From a virus, in the IMG/VR virus record IMGVR_UViG_3300034018_001699, positions 1 through 36,478 of that record: 36,478 bases of DNA; one strand, written 5' to 3'. This document shows positions 901-36,478 of the stretch, one piece after another. A model generated the notes under the pieces. It saw nothing but the letters and a program-made list of their open reading frames with translations. It was not told the DNA's origin and did not search any database. Both the position numbers and the translations under genes were made by a program. Each line of letters opens with the position of its first letter. Position 1 is the stretch's first letter.

Positions 901-1809
901 ATGTCGGCAATCCTTGGGATCAAGCTTGGGAAAAATGCGGTCGATACCTGGAACGAGAAAGACTTTCGGATCGATACCGAGCATACCGAGATCTACAAAG
1001 TCTTGATGACAACCGGTGTCGGCCTGACCGGCCAGCTATGGGAAGCTGCGCAAGAGAACTTGGTCGCTAATGTGTCCGGTCTTCCAAGAATCGGGACCGG
1101 CTCGGTGATTCTGCCTGGTGCTTTTTGTATCAAGCGAAGCTTCCAGGAGGTTGGACCGGCCACCTGGGAAGTAGAATGTACTTACAGCAACATCCAGAAG
1201 CGTGGGGATGACTCGGACGTAAACAACAACCCCTGGGACATCGATCCAGAATGGACCTGGGGATTCGAGAATATGGAAGTCCCGATGACTGCCGACGCGC
1301 AGGACTCGACGAGGGCAATCACAAATTCCGCTGGAGAACCTCTACCACCAGTCACCAAGCCAATTGCAATCACGGTACTGACCATCCGTCGCGCCGAGTT
1401 ATCCTTTAACGACTCGATAATTGACACCTATGTCAACCACGTAAATTCATCGACGTACTGGGGACGGGCAGCAGGTAAGGCCCTGATGGCTGGCATCACA
1501 GCACAGACAGCCAAGCGGGACTTCACGAAGTATTTCAACGTGGAATACACGATCAAGTTCAGCCCATTGCCGGAAGGCTGGGCATTCGAGCCACTCGACG
1601 AGGGGACCTATTATTGGCAAGGTGGAGTTGGCACCGGTCGAAAAGTCCCCTTCGGTGACGATGCATTCCAGCAGGTGGTAGGCAACCTCAACGGCTCGGG
1701 AGGAAAGAATAGCAATCCACTGACTCCATCATTCGTCAGCCCACCGTATAATCGATATGACGAAGTAAACTTCAACGCTCTGAATCTCGGTCCTTTCACC
1801 TGGGCATAG
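901..1809 (+). CDS. Putative tail protein downstream of the tape measure
   Basis: A 302-residue protein whose ATG directly abuts the tape measure stop, preceded by a GGAGG-type site (gtggaggttgg). I recognise no named domain. The sequence is polar, rich in Asn, Trp and aromatic residues, with no signal peptide or membrane segment, as expected for a beta-rich structural protein. In siphophages the slot after the tape measure normally holds the distal tail or tail-hub protein, so a tail-tip role is inferred from position. The next gene begins 1 nt after its stop, so the two are probably translationally coupled. Confidence 0.62.
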   Translation: MSAILGIKLGKNAVDTWNEKDFRIDTEHTEIYKVLMTTGVGLTGQLWEAAQENLVANVSGLPRIGTGSVILPGAFCIKRSFQEVGPATWEVECTYSNIQKRGDDSDVNNNPWDIDPEWTWGFENMEVPMTADAQDSTRAITNSAGEPLPPVTKPIAITVLTIRRAELSFNDSIIDTYVNHVNSSTYWGRAAGKALMAGITAQTAKRDFTKYFNVEYTIKFSPLPEGWAFEPLDEGTYYWQGGVGTGRKVPFGDDAFQQVVGNLNGSGGKNSNPLTPSFVSPPYNRYDEVNFNALNLGPFTWA

Positions 1810-1810
1810 C

Positions 1811-2437
1811 ATGGCTGAAAAACAAGTAGCAACATTCTCCAGCACTCTGACATCCAAGCTTAAACGGATGGCTGACAGCTGGACCCCTGGAGCATCCACA
1901 GCAGGTCACATGACAGCTCGCAATGCGGTAGGCTGCTGGATCATGCAAGCCATGGCTGAGATACCAGCGGCCACCGGCCAGTGTGCAACACCTGGCACTC
2001 TGATCGGCATCACGCCAGGCGTGGGGACTGCGAGAATCTGCCACAGAGACAGAGCTACAGGCCTGGTGGTTCCATATCGACCAAACGGACTCGATGTGAC
2101 CAACACGGTCTACAACCTTAAAAAGCGAAAAATTAAAGGGGGCGGGTACTTCCTCGGAACCCGCGACCTAAATGGATCGATCTATGTCGAGGAGTATTAC
2201 AGTCACTGCTCATGCGCTCAGGAAGATGGGACCACCACCTTGACGGTGGTCACTAACGTATCCTTCGACGTGAGCAACTGTAGGCTGGTGGTATGTACTC
2301 GCCAGATATGCTTGCCACCTGGAGCTGAGATCTCCGAAGAGAGTTGCGGCGGTGGTGGTGGTGGTGGATCTGGAGGTCTCCCGGAGACTGGCGGGGAAGA
2401 TCCACCAGGGCCAGGACCAGGAGGGGGACTGTTTTAG
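1811..2437 (+). CDS. Tail-tip region protein with Gly-rich C-terminus
   Basis: A 208-residue protein of unknown family. The body has scattered cysteines, including HCSCAQ and CRLVVC motifs, and ends in a low-complexity tail: after ESC comes a run of seven glycines, then SGG, then a Gly/Pro/Glu stretch. Such Gly-rich tails are common in phage tail-tip and adhesin proteins. It sits between the presumed tail-hub gene and a Gly-Ser-repeat protein and is probably co-translated with both (gaps of 1 and 3 nt). A structural or adhesion role is inferred from position only. Confidence 0.6.
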   Translation: MAEKQVATFSSTLTSKLKRMADSWTPGASTAGHMTARNAVGCWIMQAMAEIPAATGQCATPGTLIGITPGVGTARICHRDRATGLVVPYRPNGLDVTNTVYNLKKRKIKGGGYFLGTRDLNGSIYVEEYYSHCSCAQEDGTTTLTVVTNVSFDVSNCRLVVCTRQICLPPGAEISEESCGGGGGGGSGGLPETGGEDPPGPGPGGGLF

Positions 2438-2440
2438 CAG

Positions 2441-2788
2441 ATGGGATACTCAATCGATGTGCGCAGCTGCGCCGGGTGCTGCGGGTCCGGTTCGGGCTCA
2501 GGTAGCGGGTCTGGATCTGGCTCTGGATCTGGTAGCGGGTCTGGCTCGGGCTCTGGTTCAGGTAGCGGCAGTGGAAGCGGCTCAGGCTCTGGCACTGGCC
2601 CGACGCTATGCGATGGACTTTGCTTCTACCGGTGGGATGCATTAGACAACAAGTGGGTGTTCCAGTACGAGACGTGCATCAATTTCGAAGAGACTTCGCT
2701 TGTCTGTGGTTGTATCGGTACAATCGAGACATCTGGCGGATACGATGGCGAAATGGCCTTCAAGCAGTGTGTTTTCTCCGAGGTTTAG
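2441..2788 (+). CDS. Cys-rich protein with an 18-unit Gly-Ser repeat
   Basis: A 115-residue protein in three parts: a Cys-containing N-terminus (CAGCC near residues 10-14), a run of 18 Gly-Ser dipeptides encoded at 2483-2590 followed by GTGP, and a Cys-rich C-terminal module with LCDGLCF, ETCINF and VCGC motifs. The repeat uses all four glycine codons and all six serine codons, so it is kept by selection on the protein and is not a fresh DNA slippage product. Gly-Ser runs act as flexible linkers, and serines in such runs can be glycosylation sites. A glycosyltransferase fusion lies about 480 nt downstream. A tail-tip role is inferred from position. Confidence 0.7.
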   Translation: MGYSIDVRSCAGCCGSGSGSGSGSGSGSGSGSGSGSGSGSGSGSGSGSGSGTGPTLCDGLCFYRWDALDNKWVFQYETCINFEETSLVCGCIGTIETSGGYDGEMAFKQCVFSEV

Positions 2789-2794
2789 GACACG

Positions 2795-3268
2795 ATGGAC
2801 AAATGCGAGCGCAGGCGAGAGCACGAGGGATTGATCTTTTGCGATGTGGCCAAGGAGTGGGCCGAAGGACTTGATATTCCGGTCACTCTCGCGGCATGCA
2901 AAGTATGCCTTGGGTGTGCAAAACCAAAGCAAGTCAACCGGGTGACTGTCTCCATTGCCATGGCTCGTCTGAGTCGAGACAACCACGAGCTATGGGTTAA
3001 GAAACAACCCGAGACCCTGGAGCACTTGCTCGAACCAACCATGTCCGAGAAGGCAATCCGGTACATCAACTCTACAACCCAATGGGTGATGGAAGGTCGG
3101 CCAGAGCGTACCGACGCACAAGTCGAAGCGGTCCTCAAGATCTGCCGAGCGTGCGACAATTGGACCGGTCATTCGTGCGACTTGTGTGGCTGCGAGATCA
3201 ACGAGTCGAATGGATGGCAGAATAAGGCTAGGCGATCAACGGAAAATTGCCCAAAAGGACACTGGTAG
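2795..3268 (+). CDS. Cys-rich putative zinc-binding protein
   Basis: A 157-residue protein with two Cys clusters. The N-terminal one contains AACKVCLGC. The C-terminal one (about residues 125-157) has the pattern KICRACDNW, SCDLCGCEI, then NCPKGHW. This CxxC...CxxCxC...CPxxxW arrangement recurs in small domains of phage and bacterial proteins and probably binds zinc. It has no signal peptide. It lies between the Gly-Ser-repeat protein and the glycosyltransferase-methyltransferase. It could be an accessory protein of the modification block or a tail component; I cannot assign a function. Confidence 0.62.
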   Translation: MDKCERRREHEGLIFCDVAKEWAEGLDIPVTLAACKVCLGCAKPKQVNRVTVSIAMARLSRDNHELWVKKQPETLEHLLEPTMSEKAIRYINSTTQWVMEGRPERTDAQVEAVLKICRACDNWTGHSCDLCGCEINESNGWQNKARRSTENCPKGHW

Positions 3269-3270
3269 AC

Positions 3271-4968
3271 ATGCCCAACCACAACGAGCTAACGCAATCC
3301 TGGACAGTTGAACAATGCATGGCACTCATGCAGCAGCCACCAGGACCATGGCCTGCTAACTGGTTCGGCTATCCAAACGTCATCGAGGCTTTTCGAAGGC
3401 TCTTTGACCAGGCCTCAAAGTCTGTCCCTCGTACTCCAGATAGATGGGATCACGATCGCGGCATTGTGATCTGTGGTGGTGGCTGGCGATTCTTCCCATC
3501 GATCTATGTGACTGTCCGACAGATTCGCGCCCATGGCTGCGACTTGCCAATACAGGTCTGGTACTTGGGGGATCGCGGGGAGTTCGATCTTAGGATGGCT
3601 CAAGCCTTAGAGCCTTACAATGTCGGCTGGGTGTGCGCCAACTCGTGGCAGCGGACCAGGGGCATTCCTCGAAGGATCTTGGGCGGATGGGAAATGAAAC
3701 CATTCGCGGCCCTGCATGCTCCATTCAAGGAGGTCATCTGCCTCGATGCCGATTCGTACCCGGTCTACAATCCCGAAGTCTTCATGGCCCACCCCGAATA
3801 CATGCGGGTCGGTGCTGCGTTCTGGCCGGATCAACAGAAGCTCGAACACGGACAGTGGGAGCGTTTTGGCTTACCATGGCATGATGAGCAAGCCTTTGAA
3901 TCGGGTCAGTACATGGTGGACAAGTCCAGGCACTATGACGCATTGTGGTTAACGGACTGGATGAATGATTACAGCGACTACGTGTATAAGCACATCTACG
4001 GCGACAAGGACACATTCCACCTATGCTGGCGAAAGATGGGCCGAGAGTGCTGCATCCCGACCACCCATCCCGGATGGCATCACGTAGCATTCATGCAGAA
4101 GGACTTCGACGGTCGGACGTTGTTTGTCCATCGAACCCGCGACAAGTTCCGATGGGAGGGGGACATTGACGGCCAGCCTGTCAACAAGTGGTATATGACC
4201 GGTCAGTATAATCATGCGGTGGCCTTCATTGCCGACATGCCAGATGAGATCCAGGCCCACGGATACTGCGACGAGTCGAGCAAGCTGATTCGACCGGACA
4301 AGCACTTTCATTTTTCTGACGGGCCGACAGGCGTAGCTCGTCGAACTTGGGACGAGGTCGCTTTATACAACGAGTATCGATTGCCGAACAAGTTCAGCAG
4401 CAAGGACGTGATCATCGATTGCGGTGCCCACATGGGGGCTTTTAGCTGGTCCTGTCTTCGTCGCAATGCTGGGCTTGTAATCGCGGTCGAACCCATGGCG
4501 GAAAATGTCGAGAGACTCGCAGCCAACCTGGATCGCGAGCGAAACCGAATCGAGATCATCCCTAAGGGCGTGTGGCGTGAAAATGGATCGATCACCTTGG
4601 AGGACGATCCAATGCACGAGCCAGGCGTGACAACCACGTTTAACCTGCTACAGACCAGCGAGTCGGGTCGGATCGTGCAGACGATCACCATGGACTCGGT
4701 AATCGATCGAGCGGTTAGTCTGTCTCCATCGGGTCGAGTGCGACTGCTCAAGGTGGATTGCGAAGGTGGCGAATACCCTGGGCTGTTGTGGTGCTCCAGG
4801 TTAGGGCTCGTGGATGAGATCTGCGGGGAGGTCCATCGCAATACCACCATCGACGGTACTGTCTATTCAACTGAGGACATCGAGCGACGATTGACCGACG
4901 AAGGCTTTACCGTCGAGGTCAAGCAGAACGGACCGAATACAGATCTACTTTGGGCGGTGAGAGAATGA
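3271..4968 (+). CDS. Glycosyltransferase-FkbM methyltransferase fusion
   Basis: A 565-residue two-domain enzyme. Residues ~60-300 look like a nucleotide-sugar-dependent transferase of the putative mannosyltransferase type (CGGGWRFFPSIYV; a DAD metal-binding motif at 159-161 in LDADSYPVYNPEVF). Residues ~375-560 form an FkbM-family SAM-dependent O-methyltransferase: DCGAHMGAF as the SAM loop, VEPMAEN after it, and LLKVDCEGGEY near 492-502. The family knowledge suggests sugar transfer followed by O-methylation. I chose ATG 3271, with AAAGGA upstream and 2 nt after the preceding stop, over a TTG at 3247 that would overlap that gene. It lies in the tail-tip block, so a virion protein such as the Gly-Ser-repeat protein is a plausible target. 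The substrate is unknown. Confidence 0.85.
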   Translation: MPNHNELTQSWTVEQCMALMQQPPGPWPANWFGYPNVIEAFRRLFDQASKSVPRTPDRWDHDRGIVICGGGWRFFPSIYVTVRQIRAHGCDLPIQVWYLGDRGEFDLRMAQALEPYNVGWVCANSWQRTRGIPRRILGGWEMKPFAALHAPFKEVICLDADSYPVYNPEVFMAHPEYMRVGAAFWPDQQKLEHGQWERFGLPWHDEQAFESGQYMVDKSRHYDALWLTDWMNDYSDYVYKHIYGDKDTFHLCWRKMGRECCIPTTHPGWHHVAFMQKDFDGRTLFVHRTRDKFRWEGDIDGQPVNKWYMTGQYNHAVAFIADMPDEIQAHGYCDESSKLIRPDKHFHFSDGPTGVARRTWDEVALYNEYRLPNKFSSKDVIIDCGAHMGAFSWSCLRRNAGLVIAVEPMAENVERLAANLDRERNRIEIIPKGVWRENGSITLEDDPMHEPGVTTTFNLLQTSESGRIVQTITMDSVIDRAVSLSPSGRVRLLKVDCEGGEYPGLLWCSRLGLVDEICGEVHRNTTIDGTVYSTEDIERRLTDEGFTVEVKQNGPNTDLLWAVRE

Positions 4969-5408
4969 ATAACCTGTCAAAGTCGCTGATTGAATCCTAC
5001 TTGTTCGTTTTGGCCTTGATGGCTGTCTTCGCGTTGTTTGCTTGGATGACTCGCGGGTCAAGCATACCACCAGAGCCACCAGAGCAACTGAGCGAAGCCA
5101 CTGTAGATGGATGGGGAGAGCCCCGCAGCTCCGAATGGTCGGCGGTGCGAGCAGCTCACGTCAAGCGGCATCCGGCCTGCCTGGCTTGCGGATCGGTCGA
5201 GCAGCTCAACGTTCACCACATCGAGCCATTCCACTTGCGACCGGACCTGGAGCTAGAACCAAACAACCTGGTGACCCTGTGTCGCGAGCATCACTTCCGC
5301 ATTGGTCACGATCCAGACGGACCATGGAAGCCACAAAAACCAAGCTGGATCAAGTCGAATCCGAATGTCAGGCAAGACTCCATCAACTGGGCAAGGTCAA
5401 GCAAGTGA
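4965..5408 (+). CDS. Membrane-anchored HNH endonuclease
   Basis: A 147-residue protein. Residues ~11-28 form one hydrophobic transmembrane segment followed by a Pro-rich linker. Residues 72-115 carry an HNH nuclease fold: CLACG (C72, C75), VHHIEPFH (H84, H85), an EPNNL loop, and TLCREHH (C106, H109, H110). The two CxxC-like pairs would hold the structural zinc; His85 is the likely general base. ATG 4965 overlaps the previous stop as ATGA, and an upstream TTG is less likely. HNH proteins often sit near terminases and help packaging, but a membrane anchor is odd for that. Action on DNA entering or leaving at the membrane is possible but untested. Confidence 0.82.
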   Translation: MNNLSKSLIESYLFVLALMAVFALFAWMTRGSSIPPEPPEQLSEATVDGWGEPRSSEWSAVRAAHVKRHPACLACGSVEQLNVHHIEPFHLRPDLELEPNNLVTLCREHHFRIGHDPDGPWKPQKPSWIKSNPNVRQDSINWARSSK

Positions 5409-6256
5409 ACCAACTGAGAACAGCTATATGGTGGACCACTTTTGCCTGTAACTTCAAGTGCAAATACTGCTGGGAAGTCCAGGCCCAAGAGCGGGGAGAG
5501 TTTAAGCCTGAGCCATTCTTGCCATGGGAGAAATGGGTCGAGGTATGGAACAAGCTCAAGCCTCAATTCCTCGACATCACAGGCGGTGAACCATTTCTCC
5601 CTGGGATCGGCCTGGTTCAAATCCTTGAGCACCTGGACAAGTCTATTAAAGTCTCCATCACGTCCAATCTGTCTCACAGTCTTCTAGACTTCGTCAAGGT
5701 AGCGACACCACACCAAGTTCACTCGATCACGGCTAGCTTTCACCCGACCGAAAACGGGACGAAGCAGCAGCCAATGAACCCAGAGATATTCATCGGGCGG
5801 GTGAAGTTTCTCCAGGAGTTTGGCTACCAGGTCACAGCGAATATGGTGGCTTGGCCAGAACAGCTTTGGCTTATCCCGCATTGGGTCCAAATGTTCGACG
5901 CTCAGGGAATCCGCTGGCATGTGGACCCCTACCAATCCATCGCCTATTACCCCTGGGATTACACCGAAGCACAGAAAGAAATGCTTCGTCCATTCATGCG
6001 AGAGAATCGAGCCTGGGGGCTAGATCCCAAACCAGATGGCAAGCAGGTACTCTGCTCAGGTGGGATCGACCATATCAGCGTTCAGCCGAATGGTGATGCC
6101 TGGCGTTGCATCCTGGAGCGCCAACAGCTAATCGGCAAGCTTGGTAACGTCTTCGATCCAGATTTCCGACTGGCCACAGAATCGAGACCCTGTGACCAGT
6201 CCTGGCAATGTCCAGCCTGCGATAGAGATAAGGTCAGCCTGGTTCAGATCGGCTAG
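5405..6256 (+). CDS. Radical SAM enzyme with SPASM/twitch-like Cys C-terminus
   Basis: A 283-residue radical SAM protein. The CxxxCxxC motif for the [4Fe-4S] cluster is at C15, C19 and C22 (ACNFKCKYC), followed by the SAM-contact motif DITGGEPF. The C-terminus adds further cysteines (LCSGG, WRC, and CDQSWQCPAC), like the auxiliary-cluster SPASM/twitch domains of enzymes that modify peptides. I chose GTG 5405, which overlaps the previous stop as GTGA; an in-frame ATG at 5324 would give 27 more residues but an 84-nt overlap. It is the last gene of the rightward operon, beside the glycosyltransferase fusion. Peptide or sugar modification is inferred; it lacks the spacing of QueE-type enzymes. 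Confidence 0.85.
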   Translation: MNQLRTAIWWTTFACNFKCKYCWEVQAQERGEFKPEPFLPWEKWVEVWNKLKPQFLDITGGEPFLPGIGLVQILEHLDKSIKVSITSNLSHSLLDFVKVATPHQVHSITASFHPTENGTKQQPMNPEIFIGRVKFLQEFGYQVTANMVAWPEQLWLIPHWVQMFDAQGIRWHVDPYQSIAYYPWDYTEAQKEMLRPFMRENRAWGLDPKPDGKQVLCSGGIDHISVQPNGDAWRCILERQQLIGKLGNVFDPDFRLATESRPCDQSWQCPACDRDKVSLVQIG

Positions 6257-9150: not shown

Positions 9151-10857
9151 CTAACTGTTGAATAGGTTTAATTGGATTTCGGCTAGCTCTCTGGCCTCGA
9201 TGACTGCTTCCTCGTTCGAGCAGTCCACTATTTCGCCGATCTCTACGGCTAGGATCTCTGGCCACTTGCGACCAGGTATCCATTTCAAATGCATCCGCTT
9301 TGGTGCTGCTAATGCATGCGGGACTTTTTTGAGCATGTGGTAGGCTTCCCAGCAGCTATTCGGACACGGTACGCTCGAGCGTTCTGCCCACCATGCCTCT
9401 GCTTTCCTCCTTGCAAACGAGCCTGGCGGGTGATCCAAGCAGATATACTCGGACACCGACTGCGTCCCCTTGAGGCGGTAGATAGCTCGGAAGGATCGGT
9501 GCTCCTTCTTCTCGGACTTGTAGACCAAGTAGACAGGCTCCTTAACCACATCCACCCATTCCGTGATCGGCTCCTTGATTCCACTCGACAGGACTGGCAG
9601 CTGGCTAGCTTGGGCCTCGTGCCTGGCTTCCGGCTCGGGAAACTCATACCCACAAGCAGGGCACTCGCGAGCTTGCAAGCTCAGTAGCTCTTTGCACTCT
9701 GGGCAAGCCTTGCTCGGTGTTTCCCCTGGAGCACCCTCCCTGGGTCCTTTGCGGTCCGGTGCTTTGAGTTGATCGATCGGCCCATGTCGGCGGATGTTTC
9801 CCGCGAAGTCAAGGACCAAGCAATTCTGCTTGCTGGGGTGAAGTCTGAAACCACGCCCCACCATCTGATACAGCAGACCAGGCGAAAGAGTCGGACGAAA
9901 CAATGCCACGCAGTCCACATTCGGTGCATCAAATCCCGTGGTCAAAACATCGATATTCACCAGGTATCGGATTAGACCAGCCTTGAACTTTGCTAGCGTC
10001 TCGTCTCGTTCTCCGGATGATGTCTCACCATCGACGTATCCGATCTGCTCCGCTGGTACTTGTTGGCCGATGCAATCACGCAACATCGCGGCATGTTTTC
10101 GACCACACGCGAACAGCAACACCGAATGGCGATCATGAGTCCAGCCGAGCAGCTCCAGCGTAGCGGCTCGGACCACATCCTCTTGAGCTGCTGAGCGATC
10201 CAAGGCACCCTGTACGAATTCACCACCCTTGGTGGCCACTCCATCAGTATTGATGGCGTGGGCTGTCTGCTTCGATGTCAGGGGGCACAGGTAGCCTTCC
10301 TCGATCAGCTTGAGCAGCGGGACTTCGTAGCAGATCTCAGTAAGAAGATTCTTCGGACCACACACAACCCCATGATCCAAACGGTATGGAGTCGCGGTCA
10401 GTCCAACGATTCGCAAATTAGGATTGATCGCTAGTAGGTGATCCAGGAGTTGCCGATACATCCCCTCACCTGATAACGGAATCAGGTGAGCTTCGTCAAC
10501 GATCACAATATCGCGATGGCCGATCATGTAGGCAGCGGCTTGCCGAAAGCAGGACTGGACACCAGCGACCACGATCGAATGTCCGTGCTCCTTTCGTCTC
10601 AATCCTGCCGACCAGACTCCAATGTCGAGCCCTGGTAAGCACGAGGCGATTTTCTCGGCGTTCTGTTCTAGCAGCTCCTTGCGGTGAGCTAGGACGAGAC
10701 ACCGACCACCCCAAGCGACCACATCACGCGCCAGCATGGCAATCACAAGCGACTTACCAGCCCCAGTGGGGAGCACGATGCAAGGATTACCAGGCTGGGC
10801 GCGGATGAAGTCCCAGCAAGCAGAAACCGATTCTGACTGATACCATCGCGGATCCAT
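9151..10857 (-). CDS. SF2 DEAH-box helicase, RadD-like
   Basis: A 568-residue superfamily 2 helicase. Motif I is LPTGAGKS (29-36), motif II is DEAH (121-124), motif III is LTATPYR, and motif VI is QMVGRGFR. A four-Cys zinc ribbon (CPECK and CPACGYEF) follows the helicase core near residues 385-405. That layout, with the GYLCPLTSK stretch between the two RecA folds, matches RadD/YejH-type helicases that act in recombination and repair. A GAGGAG site lies 6 nt before the ATG, made from the last codons of the upstream gene. It probably unwinds DNA or recombination intermediates for the phage. Confidence 0.88.
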   Translation of the reverse strand: MDPRWYQSESVSACWDFIRAQPGNPCIVLPTGAGKSLVIAMLARDVVAWGGRCLVLAHRKELLEQNAEKIASCLPGLDIGVWSAGLRRKEHGHSIVVAGVQSCFRQAAAYMIGHRDIVIVDEAHLIPLSGEGMYRQLLDHLLAINPNLRIVGLTATPYRLDHGVVCGPKNLLTEICYEVPLLKLIEEGYLCPLTSKQTAHAINTDGVATKGGEFVQGALDRSAAQEDVVRAATLELLGWTHDRHSVLLFACGRKHAAMLRDCIGQQVPAEQIGYVDGETSSGERDETLAKFKAGLIRYLVNIDVLTTGFDAPNVDCVALFRPTLSPGLLYQMVGRGFRLHPSKQNCLVLDFAGNIRRHGPIDQLKAPDRKGPREGAPGETPSKACPECKELLSLQARECPACGYEFPEPEARHEAQASQLPVLSSGIKEPITEWVDVVKEPVYLVYKSEKKEHRSFRAIYRLKGTQSVSEYICLDHPPGSFARRKAEAWWAERSSVPCPNSCWEAYHMLKKVPHALAAPKRMHLKWIPGRKWPEILAVEIGEIVDCSNEEAVIEARELAEIQLNLFNS

Positions 10858-10860
10858 TGG

Positions 10861-11379
10861 CTACTCCTCAGTTGTCAAGGATTGCTTAACAACTGGTAAG
10901 CTCGGCTCTCCGGGATAGAACGAGCCCACCTGAATACTGATATAGCCCTTGCCATCGTCGTCGGTCTGCTCAGCTTCCTCGCATGGGTCCGACTCGATCC
11001 AGGCATATTTCCACTCAACCCGCTGGCCTCTTGACCCTTCGCAGCAAAACCAGCCATGCGCGATTCCGATCAGCTTGGCCTCGGGTGATTCGGTGGGCTT
11101 GCATGATGCCCTGTTGTTGACCCGTACCAACCTGCCGACATTGGCAGCGGTCGCGCGTTTCCAGATCTTCCCATCAAGCGACCAAAAATCGGGCTGATCT
11201 CCGTCCCAAGTCACCATCTGCTCCAAGGCCTCACAGCGTTTATCGCTGTCGGCTACAGTCCTATCGATCGCGGCTACCTCAGCTTGGGCCATGTCGCATT
11301 CGTCAAGAATCGATCGATGCAGATTCGCAGCTATTTCTCGAAGGCTTCGCAGCCTTTGCAGTCTCTGTTTTGCACTCAC
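10861..11379 (-). CDS. Hypothetical protein, GTG start set by a GGAGACAC leader
   Basis: A 172-residue protein of unknown function. The N-terminal third is a charged helix (Arg/Glu-rich, likely coiled coil). The C-terminal part contains an aromatic, Cys-containing core with AHGWFCCEG and ends acidic. The longest frame would begin with ATG at 11451, but GGAGACACAAAAA directly precedes GTG 11379, the same block that precedes several other leftward genes here, so I chose GTG. The HGWxCC motif recurs in the product of 15918-16370. It lies between the DUF669 gene and the helicase gene, so a role in DNA metabolism is possible but not shown. Confidence 0.66.
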   Translation of the reverse strand: MSAKQRLQRLRSLREIAANLHRSILDECDMAQAEVAAIDRTVADSDKRCEALEQMVTWDGDQPDFWSLDGKIWKRATAANVGRLVRVNNRASCKPTESPEAKLIGIAHGWFCCEGSRGQRVEWKYAWIESDPCEEAEQTDDDGKGYISIQVGSFYPGEPSLPVVKQSLTTEE

Positions 11380-21638: not shown

Positions 21639-22101
21639 GCTGCTTGGAATCGTCCTTACAGGTCTAGCCTTGGGTCTCCCTTGGCTGGATCGCCTCGCGC
21701 CTGCTCCTGGCCCCGTACCAAATCCAGCTCCTGCCCCTGGCCCGGTCATCGATGTCCCGGCCAGCGTGGCTGAGCCATTAAAGGCGGGTTTTGCAGGACG
21801 CAAGCAAGAGGCAGCCACATGGGCCGGTCTGCTCTACGGGATGGCCCGGTCTATCGAGTCGGATGCCAGCCATCCCAAGGGACCGAGATTGAAAACCATG
21901 CTTGACGTGCAGCAGCTGCGAGACTGGGTCGTCGCTTGCCCCCCTAAACCGGTCGGCAATGGATCGGTGATCGGCCAAGCTCTCGGACCTGATCTAGCCA
22001 AGCTCGGGACCAGCGATGAACCCCTCGACGAAGCAGGCCGAAGGGCAACTGTGGTCAAGCTTTTCGATGGAGCGGCCTACACTCTGGAGCACCTGAAATG
22101 A
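21628..22101 (+). CDS. Membrane-anchored or secreted protein with Pro/Ala linker
   Basis: A 157-residue protein: a signal or anchor helix (LLGIVLTGLALGLPWL, about 5-20), a linker of repeated APAPGP units (about 24-41), then a helical domain of ~110 residues. No lipobox Cys is seen. It overlaps its neighbours by 11 and 4 nt. The exported, linker-borne domain fits a spanin- or envelope-associated part of the lysis cassette; the function is not recognised. Confidence 0.62.
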   Translation: MNRKLLGIVLTGLALGLPWLDRLAPAPGPVPNPAPAPGPVIDVPASVAEPLKAGFAGRKQEAATWAGLLYGMARSIESDASHPKGPRLKTMLDVQQLRDWVVACPPKPVGNGSVIGQALGPDLAKLGTSDEPLDEAGRRATVVKLFDGAAYTLEHLK

Positions 22102-23075
22102 GCTTGCACTTAGGCTGGACCCCAAATCACGAAGCAGTGGAATCGGTCCTGAATGACTCCGAGACTCCAGTCTTCCGCATGTCGGCGGACCAGTCTCGAA
22201 TGATGCAGGCAAGCTTCGCCGACCCGAGCAAGCCACCGGTGATCCTGTTCGATTCGCTCAGGGCTCTCCAGCCTGACTGGGAACGAGGCAACCAGGGGAT
22301 CGGCGACTGTGTTTCCTGGGGCTGGGAGCTGGGCACCACTCTCTCTGTGTCCAGCGACATCCGGCAGAAGCTTCGGCCATGGATCTGGAAAGGCCCCTAC
22401 GCCACAGAGCCTTACTACGGTGGAGCAAGAGTCGAAGCGCGAGGGATCAAGCAAGGCGGTTACCGCGATGGTGCGGTCGGTGCCTATGCTGCGAAGTTCG
22501 CCACCAAGTGGGGAGCACTTCCACGACTTGACTACTCGTCCATCACCGGCAACCAGGATCACGACCTGCGAAGCTACTCGGCAAAGCGCTCGAAGGAGTG
22601 GGGGAATTTTGGATGTGGTGGATCCTTTGACAAGAACGCTCTCGACGATCTTTGCAAGCTAACGCCAATCAACGAAGCACCACTTACCACAACCTTTGAG
22701 CAAGCAGCAGGCGTCATCGAGTCCGGCTTTCCGGTCGTGGTCTGCTCTGATCAAGGTCTATCAGACAAGCGTGACAAGGACGGCTTCGTTGTCGGTCGTG
22801 GTACCTGGTACCACTGTATGACTTTCGCAGGTGTCCGATACGATCGGCCAGGCTTGCTGTGTGTCAATTCGTGGGGCAATTCCTGGGGTCTCGGTGACTG
22901 GTACAAGAGCACCAAGACTGGCGAAGTGATCGACTATTGGCCAGCGGTGCAAAAATGCTCTGCTTGGGTCGATGCCAAGACGTGTGATCGAATGCTGCGT
23001 CAAGAAGACAGCTATGCTGTCTGTGGCGTGGGCGGACTCCAAAGACGGTCCATAGATTGGACGAAAGGATGGTAA
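22098..23075 (+). CDS. Papain-like (C1-type) cysteine peptidase
   Basis: A 325-residue protein with the papain-fold signatures in order: QGIGDCVSW with the likely nucleophile C71 and oxyanion Gln 66, WYHCMTFAGV with H239, and CVNSWGNSWG with N257. The Gln-Cys spacing is one residue shorter than in papain. No signal peptide is visible. C1-type enzymes are unusual in phages. The flanking membrane and exported proteins suggest an envelope-degrading lysin, perhaps suited to a host with a protein-rich wall; a head-maturation role is an alternative, but a separate capsid protease candidate lies at 30867. Confidence 0.8.
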   Translation: MSLHLGWTPNHEAVESVLNDSETPVFRMSADQSRMMQASFADPSKPPVILFDSLRALQPDWERGNQGIGDCVSWGWELGTTLSVSSDIRQKLRPWIWKGPYATEPYYGGARVEARGIKQGGYRDGAVGAYAAKFATKWGALPRLDYSSITGNQDHDLRSYSAKRSKEWGNFGCGGSFDKNALDDLCKLTPINEAPLTTTFEQAAGVIESGFPVVVCSDQGLSDKRDKDGFVVGRGTWYHCMTFAGVRYDRPGLLCVNSWGNSWGLGDWYKSTKTGEVIDYWPAVQKCSAWVDAKTCDRMLRQEDSYAVCGVGGLQRRSIDWTKGW

Positions 23076-34894: not shown

Positions 34895-35456
34895 GCGAGC
34901 CACCGAACGGACCTTGAAGCACTTCGGTGCGATCATTCGGCAGGACGCTCGAAAGCTCATCGGTGCTCCAGCAAAGGGGGTCAAGTTCTCCAAGCAGATC
35001 GTGGATGGTAAACAGGTCACGGTCATGAAACCTGGACCACCACCACGACCAGCGGGAAAGCCACCACGAGCACGGAACAGCCAGGAGGGAGCCAACCTTA
35101 GAACCATCGTCTATGATGTGGACAAGGAGAAGCGATCGGTACGAATCGGGGTTATGAAACTCTCTGGCATGCGTACCTATGGCGGGAAAACTCAACCCGA
35201 GATCCACGAGTTCGGTGCTACAGTCACGGTCAAGGTGGTCCGAGTTCGTAGCACTCTGACGAAAGAGAATCTCAAGAAGAAGAAAGGGCAGATGACTCAA
35301 GTCAGCTCCAGCATGATTCTCTTAGAGTCTTCTCGTGGAGGACCTATGCCGATGAAAATGCCGAAGCGCCCCTTTATGCGTCCAGCATTTGAGAGACACA
35401 AGAAGAACGCAACGAAGATTTGGAAAGAATACTACAAGGCAAGCAGGGGTAGATAA
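34818..35456 (+). CDS. Basic minor tail / HK97 gp10-like protein
   Basis: A 212-residue Lys/Arg-rich protein with a C-terminus PKRPFMRPAFERHKKNATKIW, which is typical of HK97 gp10-like tail or neck proteins. The middle is beta-rich. ATG 34818 has AAGGGA 8 nt upstream. The usual gp10 place is before the tail tube gene, so its position here is unusual, and it may be a different basic tail protein. Its stop overlaps the tape measure start as TAATG. Confidence 0.6.
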   Translation: MKIKTRLKARIKEIQKIKGKQTKRAERATERTLKHFGAIIRQDARKLIGAPAKGVKFSKQIVDGKQVTVMKPGPPPRPAGKPPRARNSQEGANLRTIVYDVDKEKRSVRIGVMKLSGMRTYGGKTQPEIHEFGATVTVKVVRVRSTLTKENLKKKKGQMTQVSSSMILLESSRGGPMPMKMPKRPFMRPAFERHKKNATKIWKEYYKASRGR

Positions 35457-36478
35457 TGAGCGCAGAGCTAGCAGGCAAGGCCTATGTAGAAATGTCGGTG
35501 AAGGGTCGCGAAGATTTCGCGAAAGCCTTCTCGGACATGCAATCCAGCGTCCAGACATTCGCGGCCAGGCTGAATGCAGTTAGAGCAGCTCCGAATGGGA
35601 CTGCGATGCAGAAGTTCTTCAAGTCGGCCAAGAAGGAGTTTGGCGACCTGATCGGAATCGCCAAGCAGTACGGCGCGGTGATCGGCGTTGCCATCGGTGC
35701 TGGAACTGTAGCCATGCTCACGCAGGCGATCAGCAAAGCTTCGGATCTCCAGGAGACAATGAACAAGTTTCGCGTTGTCTTCGGTGACAATGCGTCACAA
35801 ATGGAAGCTTGGGGCACCACCTTCGCGGCTCAAGTCGGCAGATCGAAGCAGGAAGTATTGGACTTTATGAGCCAGGCCCAAGGGCTGGTGGTTCCTATGG
35901 GGATCGATCCAAACCAGGCTCAGATGATGTCACAGACATTGACGCAGCTATCATTCGACCTGGCTAGCTTCCACAATAGCACCGATGCTGAGGCATTCGA
36001 GGCGCTCCGGTCGGCTCTGACCGGTGAAGCCGAGCCCATGAAAAAATTCGGCGTCATTGTGAACGAGACAGCGGTCAAAGCTGAGCTGCTCAAGCGAGGC
36101 CTAGATCCAACAACGGCCAACGAAGCCCAGAAAGCGATGGCCCGGTATAACATCATCCTGGAGGGCACCAAGCAGGCCCAGGGGGACGTTGAGCGTTCTG
36201 GGGACTCCTTCGCGAATAGACTCAAGGCGCTCCAGGCAAGTTGGGATGATCTGTCAGCGGGAATCGGTACTGCATTCCTGCCGGTCGCTGAGGCTCTGCT
36301 GGGATGGTTCACCGAGTTGATCCAATCCCTTGGTGACGCAAGCGGCGCGACGGATGCCACAGGCGATGCATTCGCTTCAATGGGTGGTGCTCTCGGCATT
36401 GCTGAGACTGCTGCCGGTTATCTGATCAAAGCTTGGGACCTAGTCAACATCGCCCTGAATACGGTGATGGGGACAGGC
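35456..36478 (+). CDS. Tail tape measure protein, N-terminal part
   Basis: The 5' part of the tape measure gene, continuing at base 1 of the window. It begins at ATG 35456 and stays open to the end (341 codons). The core matches the phage tail tape measure family (lambda/TP901 type): KASDLQETMNKFRVVFGDN, an LTQLSFDLASFHNSTDAEAF segment, GEAEPMKKFGVIVNETAVKA, and LKALQASWDDLSAGIGTAF. A hydrophobic stretch at about 70-90 (YGAVIGVAIGAGTVAM) may help DNA ejection through the host membrane. The last 144 bases duplicate 1-144. Confidence 0.92.
   Translation, partial: MSAELAGKAYVEMSVKGREDFAKAFSDMQSSVQTFAARLNAVRAAPNGTAMQKFFKSAKKEFGDLIGIAKQYGAVIGVAIGAGTVAMLTQAISKASDLQETMNKFRVVFGDNASQMEAWGTTFAAQVGRSKQEVLDFMSQAQGLVVPMGIDPNQAQMMSQTLTQLSFDLASFHNSTDAEAFEALRSALTGEAEPMKKFGVIVNETAVKAELLKRGLDPTTANEAQKAMARYNIILEGTKQAQGDVERSGDSFANRLKALQASWDDLSAGIGTAFLPVAEALLGWFTELIQSLGDASGATDATGDAFASMGGALGIAETAAGYLIKAWDLVNIALNTVMGTG
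36335..36478. repeat. Right copy of the 144-bp end redundancy
   Basis: Same sequence as 1-144 except A at 36461 (T at 127), which changes a Ser codon to Thr in the tape measure. See the left copy. Confidence 0.93.

Follow-up and report, generated by a model that had tools for sequence, protein, structure and literature searches.

The present analysis suggests that phages of Planctomycetota coat their tail tips with sugars by means of a compact gene cassette. Specifically, in the phage genome studied here a phage-encoded cassette probably glycosylates and O-methylates a dedicated tail-tip acceptor, a Ser-tract protein encoded at positions 2441-2788. The argument is built on gene order, domains, conservation, repeated co-occurrence, fusions and the retention of Ser/Thr, all of which are observed directly. 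The DNA analyzed, IMG/VR record IMGVR_UViG_3300034018_001699 at its full length of 36,478 nucleotides (hereafter the window), is a tailed-phage genome with recognisable portal, terminase, capsid, helicase, primase and recombination genes, and its two ends share a 144-bp overlap that contains one mismatch.

Organization of the Late Operon

When the ends are joined, the late operon runs from the tape-measure gene through genes 901-1809 and 1811-2437 into the module at 2441-6256. Its features are as follows.

35456-36334 (5′ part) and 1-900 (3′ part), plus strand: tape-measure gene, 592 aa, joined via the 144-bp overlap; 46-99% identity in relatives
901-1809, plus strand: tail protein of unknown type, 302 aa; first gene past the tape measure, kept in all relatives that reach it
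1811-2437, plus strand: Cys-containing tail-tip candidate, 208 aa, with a Gly-rich tail at its end; 34-99% identity in relatives
2441-2788, plus strand: Ser-tract protein, 115 aa, the proposed glycan acceptor; N-cap MGYSIDVRSCAGCC, then tract, then Cys/Trp domain
2483-2608, plus strand: (GS)n tract, with mixed TCN and AGY serine codons
2609-2785, plus strand: C-terminal Cys/Trp domain, C-x3-C-x-F/Y/W-x-W...W...C...C-x-C...C, from alignments
2795-3268, plus strand: Cys-rich protein, 157 aa; homologs in L013, L047, L111 and L116
3271-4968, plus strand: fusion of a PF11051 glycosyltransferase and an FkbM methyltransferase (PF05050); best start ATG 3271, LDAD at 3742-3753
4965-5408, plus strand: HNH endonuclease with an N-terminal hydrophobic helix (PF01844, 1.2e-5; phrog_144, 1.4e-13)
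5405-6256, plus strand: radical SAM protein, 283 aa, CNFKCKYC plus five further invariant Cys (PF04055, phrog_1802, alignment)

An initial annotation had read a Gly-Ser-repeat Cys protein (2441-2788), a second Cys protein (2795-3268), a glycosyltransferase-FkbM fusion and a radical SAM gene ending at 6256, and open reading frames and profiles confirm all four. It also rightly set them at the late operon's end, a place close behind the tape-measure gene (which runs from 35456 over the joined ends to 900); the genes it listed are real, but it overlooked the HNH gene at 4965-5408 between the fusion and the radical SAM gene. The product of 901-1809 has no match in Pfam or PHROG, and that of 1811-2437 none in the profile libraries. 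Elsewhere in the genome, a 325-aa ORF (22098-23075) without a PHROG match shows papain-like motifs by eye (GDCVSWGWELG, VNSWGNSWG) and is possibly a cysteine peptidase.

The HNH gene overlaps both of its neighbors. It has no match in L011 or L012 and only a partial one, at 46-47%, in L003-L005, while in the closest relatives DNA methyltransferase-like genes, apparently of different types, lie between HNH and the radical SAM gene (L001:3890-5158 and L002:9766-11274). The HNH/radical SAM junction looks like an insertion hotspot. HNH was dismissed as a cassette member, being variable or absent among relatives; the core is therefore taken to be the Ser tract, the Cys-rich protein, the GT-FkbM fusion and the radical SAM protein, with HNH as a variable insertion. 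The radical SAM start is probably the GTG at 5405, which overlaps the HNH stop (GTGA) and is preferred because relatives show it.

The Ser Tract as Candidate Acceptor

The architecture of the Ser-tract protein is common to all relatives and only the length of the tract differs: with the ends fixed, the window's protein has 115 aa, that of the close relative L002 173 aa and that of L011 279 aa. Changes inside the (GS)n tract among close relatives are synonymous and, by its coding sequence, the tract is under protein-level constraint. Serines of the TCN and AGY types are mixed within it and all four Gly codons are used; the mixture of serine codons rules out a DNA microsatellite. Across lineages the tracts take the forms (SG)n, (SSG)n, poly-Ser, (SSP)n, (SATP)n, (TTS)n and TTTTP, so that Ser/Thr is retained and Gly, Pro and Ala are not. 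A long, Ser/Thr-rich, low-complexity acceptor feature is present in the Ser-tract protein, which alone in this phage reaches at least 16 Ser/Thr per 36 residues; among the 323 ORFs of the studied loci 17 reach this density, and 15 of the 17 are these tract proteins.

Gly-Ser repeats are classic linkers. This, along with the free variation in tract length, speaks for an alternative in which the (GS)n tract is a mere flexible spacer and the transferase and methyltransferase act on some other virion or host protein. We regard that alternative as unlikely. The tracts shift to poly-Ser, SSP, SSG, TTS and TTTTP, and what is retained across lineages is therefore hydroxyl residues and not flexibility; the distribution of the glycosyltransferase, described below, also bears on it.

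The Cys/Trp domain is predicted by AlphaFold2 to be compact and all-beta (pLDDT 88.7). Fold searches of the PDB and a viral library gave no Foldseek match at E<=0.001 and a best VIA-align Z of 2.1, although a missing or weak fold match of this predicted structure is no proof of a new fold. Gene order, and in L013 a fusion to a larger protein beside structural genes, point to a place for the Ser-tract protein in the virion. The Cys/Trp domain is not confined to phage tails, since it is found N-terminally, with TTTTP repeats, in very long RHS-like proteins of one Planctomycetota genome (L109 and L110; G721 C14 and C13). On a Planctomycetota chromosome (L060:6677-13871, minus strand), a 526-aa protein in which Cys/Trp domains alternate with poly-Ser has two neighbors, a multi-domain GT-methyltransferase-TPR protein on one side and on the other a GT2-Fringe/galactosyltransferase fusion.

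The Transferase-Methyltransferase Fusion and Its Putative Accessory

The glycosyltransferase domain matches PF11051 at 8.8e-26 (91.3 bits against a cut-off of 22), a match that is a superfamily assignment and gives neither donor nor acceptor. The second domain matches PF05050 at 4.7e-11 (43.5 against a curated cut-off of 22.7) and TIGR01444 at 61.7 against 37.7, and carries DxGAxxG and E-P motifs. The two domains are fused in the window's lineage and encoded by separate genes in the prophages. The Cys-rich protein is likely an accessory of the transferase; two observations suggest this, namely that several lineages have a homolog of it ahead of the enzymes and that the GT2 proteins of L107, L108 and L119 end in a DUF6171-containing region which its C-terminal third resembles (1e-6 to 1e-8).

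Phages also carry transferases that modify the host surface. By analogy, the enzymes here might alter the host surface or a small molecule, in superinfection exclusion or counter-defense, with their proximity to tail genes owed to chance module exchange; the sub-threshold resemblance of the radical SAM protein to the STM4011, viperin and MoaA families would fit such a role. We consider this improbable, as the fusion enzyme appears soluble (no hydrophobic helix was found in the GT-FkbM, Cys or radical SAM proteins), the genes lie in the late operon and the Ser-tract protein is repeatedly linked with different transferases.

Recurrence in Related Phages

This linkage is first seen among related phage contigs. 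IMG/VR contigs L001-L005 and L007-L012 have the same module order as the window and, in every related contig long enough, the order is tape measure, two tail genes, Ser-tract protein, Cys protein, GT-FkbM and radical SAM. The Ser-tract protein is present in all related contigs that reach it, even where the other genes have fallen to 34-70% identity. L013 is a different phage, whose portal is of the Mu type. There a 624-aa protein ends in a poly-Ser tract and the Cys/Trp domain seen in the window, and downstream of it come a Cys protein, a GT25, a second enzyme that matches nothing in Pfam, a methyltransferase and a radical SAM protein at 56% identity. The 79-kb phage L047 has several glycosyltransferases and, farther downstream on the same strand, two domain proteins whose tracts are of the (SSP)n and (SATP)n types; its glycosyltransferase cluster also holds one radical SAM/SPASM and one B12-type radical SAM protein, again on the same strand (L127:11320-13671, minus strand). 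A Planctomycetota contig, L024, encodes GT-FkbM (57%) directly followed by the radical SAM protein (61%). L055 retains GT-FkbM (46%) and a Cys-type protein, yet the protein in the acceptor slot lacks a long Ser tract, which favors the spacer alternative. Queries of INPHARED (50,697 records) with the GT-FkbM, radical SAM and Cys proteins and two Cys/Trp-domain sequences returned zero matches.

Recurrence in Planctomycetota Prophages

A profile of the Cys/Trp domain searched against 398 Planctomycetota genomes matched in 16, and the prophage-like loci among them, whose prophage nature was read from ORFs, mostly have Ser/Thr tracts beside glycosyltransferases of several families. The tract/domain protein is followed by a GT2-methyltransferase-DUF6171 protein in L107, a GT2/DUF6171-type protein in L119, a GT25 and a homolog of the second L013 enzyme in L112, and PF11051 plus FkbM in L116 and L121. 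In L113, Cys/Trp domain, tract and GT25 form one 805-aa ORF. L114 fuses the Cys/Trp domain to a GT8-like transferase (below cut-off) and lacks a strong tract, and L115 has domain and tract with no transferase found nearby; together with L055 these are partial counterexamples to the pairing of acceptor and enzyme. In L123, a 418-aa ORF (9991-11247) that follows a poly-Ser protein has a Cys-rich start, the motif WLDSDNYF and no Pfam match, and is perhaps an unrecognised transferase. Twelve of the domain-bearing genomes contain 43 GT25 and FkbM genes, five of which lie within 4 kb of a domain locus against 0.065 expected (Poisson 4e-5 when counted as three independent cases).

The reciprocal search used a profile built on the glycosyltransferase domain of the window and gave matches in 33 of 368 Planctomycetota genomes at 1e-30. 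A Ser/Gly tract lies directly upstream in 12 of the 13 strong homologs that have upstream sequence (at least 409 bits, phages included; L024 is cut by a contig end), the exception being L055, and in 0 of the 20 weaker homologs. On a maximum-likelihood tree of the transferase, the tract label changes twice, against a mean of 10 in shuffles, none of which was as low (0/500). The prophage copies checked have the glycosyltransferase and then a separate FkbM. The Ser-tract proteins of L148-L153 have a variable C-terminal cap or none, and tract, transferase and FkbM stay (FkbM profile-checked in five of the six); as far as these loci can be read, the partner of this glycosyltransferase is the tract rather than the cap. 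That only the strong homologs have the tract directly upstream, and that fusions of glycosyltransferases to the domain protein exist, further argues against a spacer. The proposed glycosylation of a dedicated tail-tip acceptor by the phage itself is accordingly well supported by genomics, because of this split between close and weaker transferase relatives and the recurrence of the cassette in many Planctomycetota prophages.

When genes 901 and 1811 were compared, as profiles, with their counterparts in the prophages, no homology was detected, and we claim no orthology; the tail-tip position in the prophages therefore rests on gene order. The Planctomycetota contig L024 and the prophage cassettes make Planctomycetota the probable host phylum of the window's phage. 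The initial annotation had proposed conserved co-occurrence of the repeat protein and the enzymes as a check; it proves strong for the repeat protein with glycosyltransferase and FkbM, both among related phages and in separate prophages of Planctomycetota, where the glycosyltransferases differ. Its proposal that the enzymes modify the repeat protein gains from this co-occurrence and from two fusions of domain and glycosyltransferase, but the part assigned to the radical SAM enzyme, found in few lineages, is weak.

The Radical SAM Protein

The radical SAM protein matches phrog_1802 at 5.6e-15 and PF04055 at 2.1e-6 (28.5 bits, just below the cut-off of 29.5; the L013 protein reaches 41.1 bits). 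Its CX3CX2C motif is invariant, with cysteines checked across eight relatives. The SPASM-like cysteines reported by the initial annotation form a CX12GX4C motif followed by C-x5-C-x2-C, giving five invariant auxiliary cysteines and not the seven of a SPASM domain, and Pfam SPASM is absent from the window protein and below threshold in L013 (13.7 of 21.5 bits). Every NCBIfam family stays below its cut-off, with STM4011 scoring best (45 of 200 bits), and the AlphaFold2 model is too poor for use (pLDDT 57). Radical SAM proteins accompany the cassette in three phage lineages, an unrelated one in one of them, and on one Planctomycetota MAG contig, the relatives being those of the window's lineage, L013 and L024; another contig of the L024 MAG holds a truncated copy with the C-terminal part only (L036:7752-8138).

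It is possible, at somewhat worse than even chances, that this protein stands outside the decoration system, acting on a nucleotide, a nucleic acid or another phage target, and is merely the last gene of the operon. It went undetected at 1e-10 in the 398 Planctomycetota genomes, where the Ser-tract/GT cassette does occur, it has weak QueE-like and MoaA-like matches, and HNH separates it from the fusion in the window; yet it directly follows a glycosyltransferase or methyltransferase in L011, L012, L013 and L024, and the unrelated radical SAM/SPASM protein of L047 sits in a glycosyltransferase cluster upstream of Ser-rich tail proteins. No RiPP precursor was seen with it. The protein may be an optional tailoring enzyme with a sugar, a protein or something else as its putative substrate, and a role as peptide modifier of the Ser-tract protein is weakly supported.

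A Model for Tail-Tip Glycosylation

From these observations we infer the enzymatic activities, the identity of the acceptor, its location in the virion and the purpose of the decoration, adhesion or hiding. In our model, the most parsimonious one, the (GS)n tract would offer serines between the N-cap and the folded Cys/Trp domain. In the cytoplasm of the infected cell, the glycosyltransferase domain of the soluble fusion enzyme would place a sugar derived from a nucleotide sugar on tract serines, the Cys-rich protein would help the transferase as its likely accessory, and the FkbM domain would cap the glycan through O-methylation. The decorated Ser-tract protein would then be built into or onto the tail tip, and the radical SAM protein could provide optional extra tailoring of sugar or protein. 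A broader and more tentative reading is that the tail tips of many Planctomycetota phages bear a mucin-like glycoprotein, that interchangeable cassettes produce it (GT-FkbM, GT25 plus a second enzyme, or GT2-methyltransferase, at times as a transferase-acceptor fusion), and that in the window's lineage the radical SAM protein gives it a further, unusual modification.

Comparison with Known Systems

Literature searches, mostly without subscription papers, returned no description of this Ser-tract/GT-FkbM system, and the proposed tail-tip Ser-tract acceptor route is undescribed in searchable papers. Glycosylation of virions has been found in a small number of phages, chiefly on capsid and tail-tube proteins. 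If the model is true, a Ser/Thr tract with recognisable enzymes would be a sequence rule that predicts glycosylated phage tails, an entry to the nearly unstudied phages of Planctomycetota, and a source of compact enzyme-acceptor pairs for producing O-glycosylated, O-methylated repeats.

Individual components resemble known families. The FkbM domain lies above the curated cut-off of its family (PF05050, TIGR01444) and is here, in the window's lineage, fused to a PF11051 transferase. The radical SAM protein shares the CX3CX2C cluster and CX12GX4C auxiliary motif with radical SAM/SPASM and twitch enzymes but, unlike these families, has five auxiliary cysteines and falls below every family cut-off. 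As described in PMC5207161, PMC6973325 and PMC7948813, Gram-positive bacteria make serine-rich repeat glycoproteins, Fap1 among them, whose Ser/Thr-rich repeats are O-glycosylated in the cell by transferases from the same locus. A Ser/Thr-rich repeat acceptor, here a candidate, and transferase genes at the same locus are thus shared; those proteins, however, are, in these accounts, bacterial adhesins exported by accessory Sec, whereas here the genes lie in a phage tail operon with other glycosyltransferase families, and GtfA/GtfB and accessory Sec genes are not present among the scanned module proteins, which have PF11051/FkbM instead.

The closest phage parallels are the mycobacteriophages Che8, Corndog and Myrna, whose virions are glycosylated (Freeman et al. 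2023, as cited in PMC12363180 and PMC11256854). Of the marks of virion glycosylation, a phage-encoded glycosyltransferase and an enzyme-acceptor linkage conserved across phages are found here. As in these phages, a glycosyltransferase made by the phage would decorate a structural protein of its own virion. Their targets, as given in those sources, are capsid and tail-tube proteins, whereas we propose a dedicated Ser-tract acceptor at the tail-tip position; and, unlike these mycobacteriophage systems as they are described there, the present one includes an FkbM methyltransferase and belongs to phages linked to Planctomycetota.
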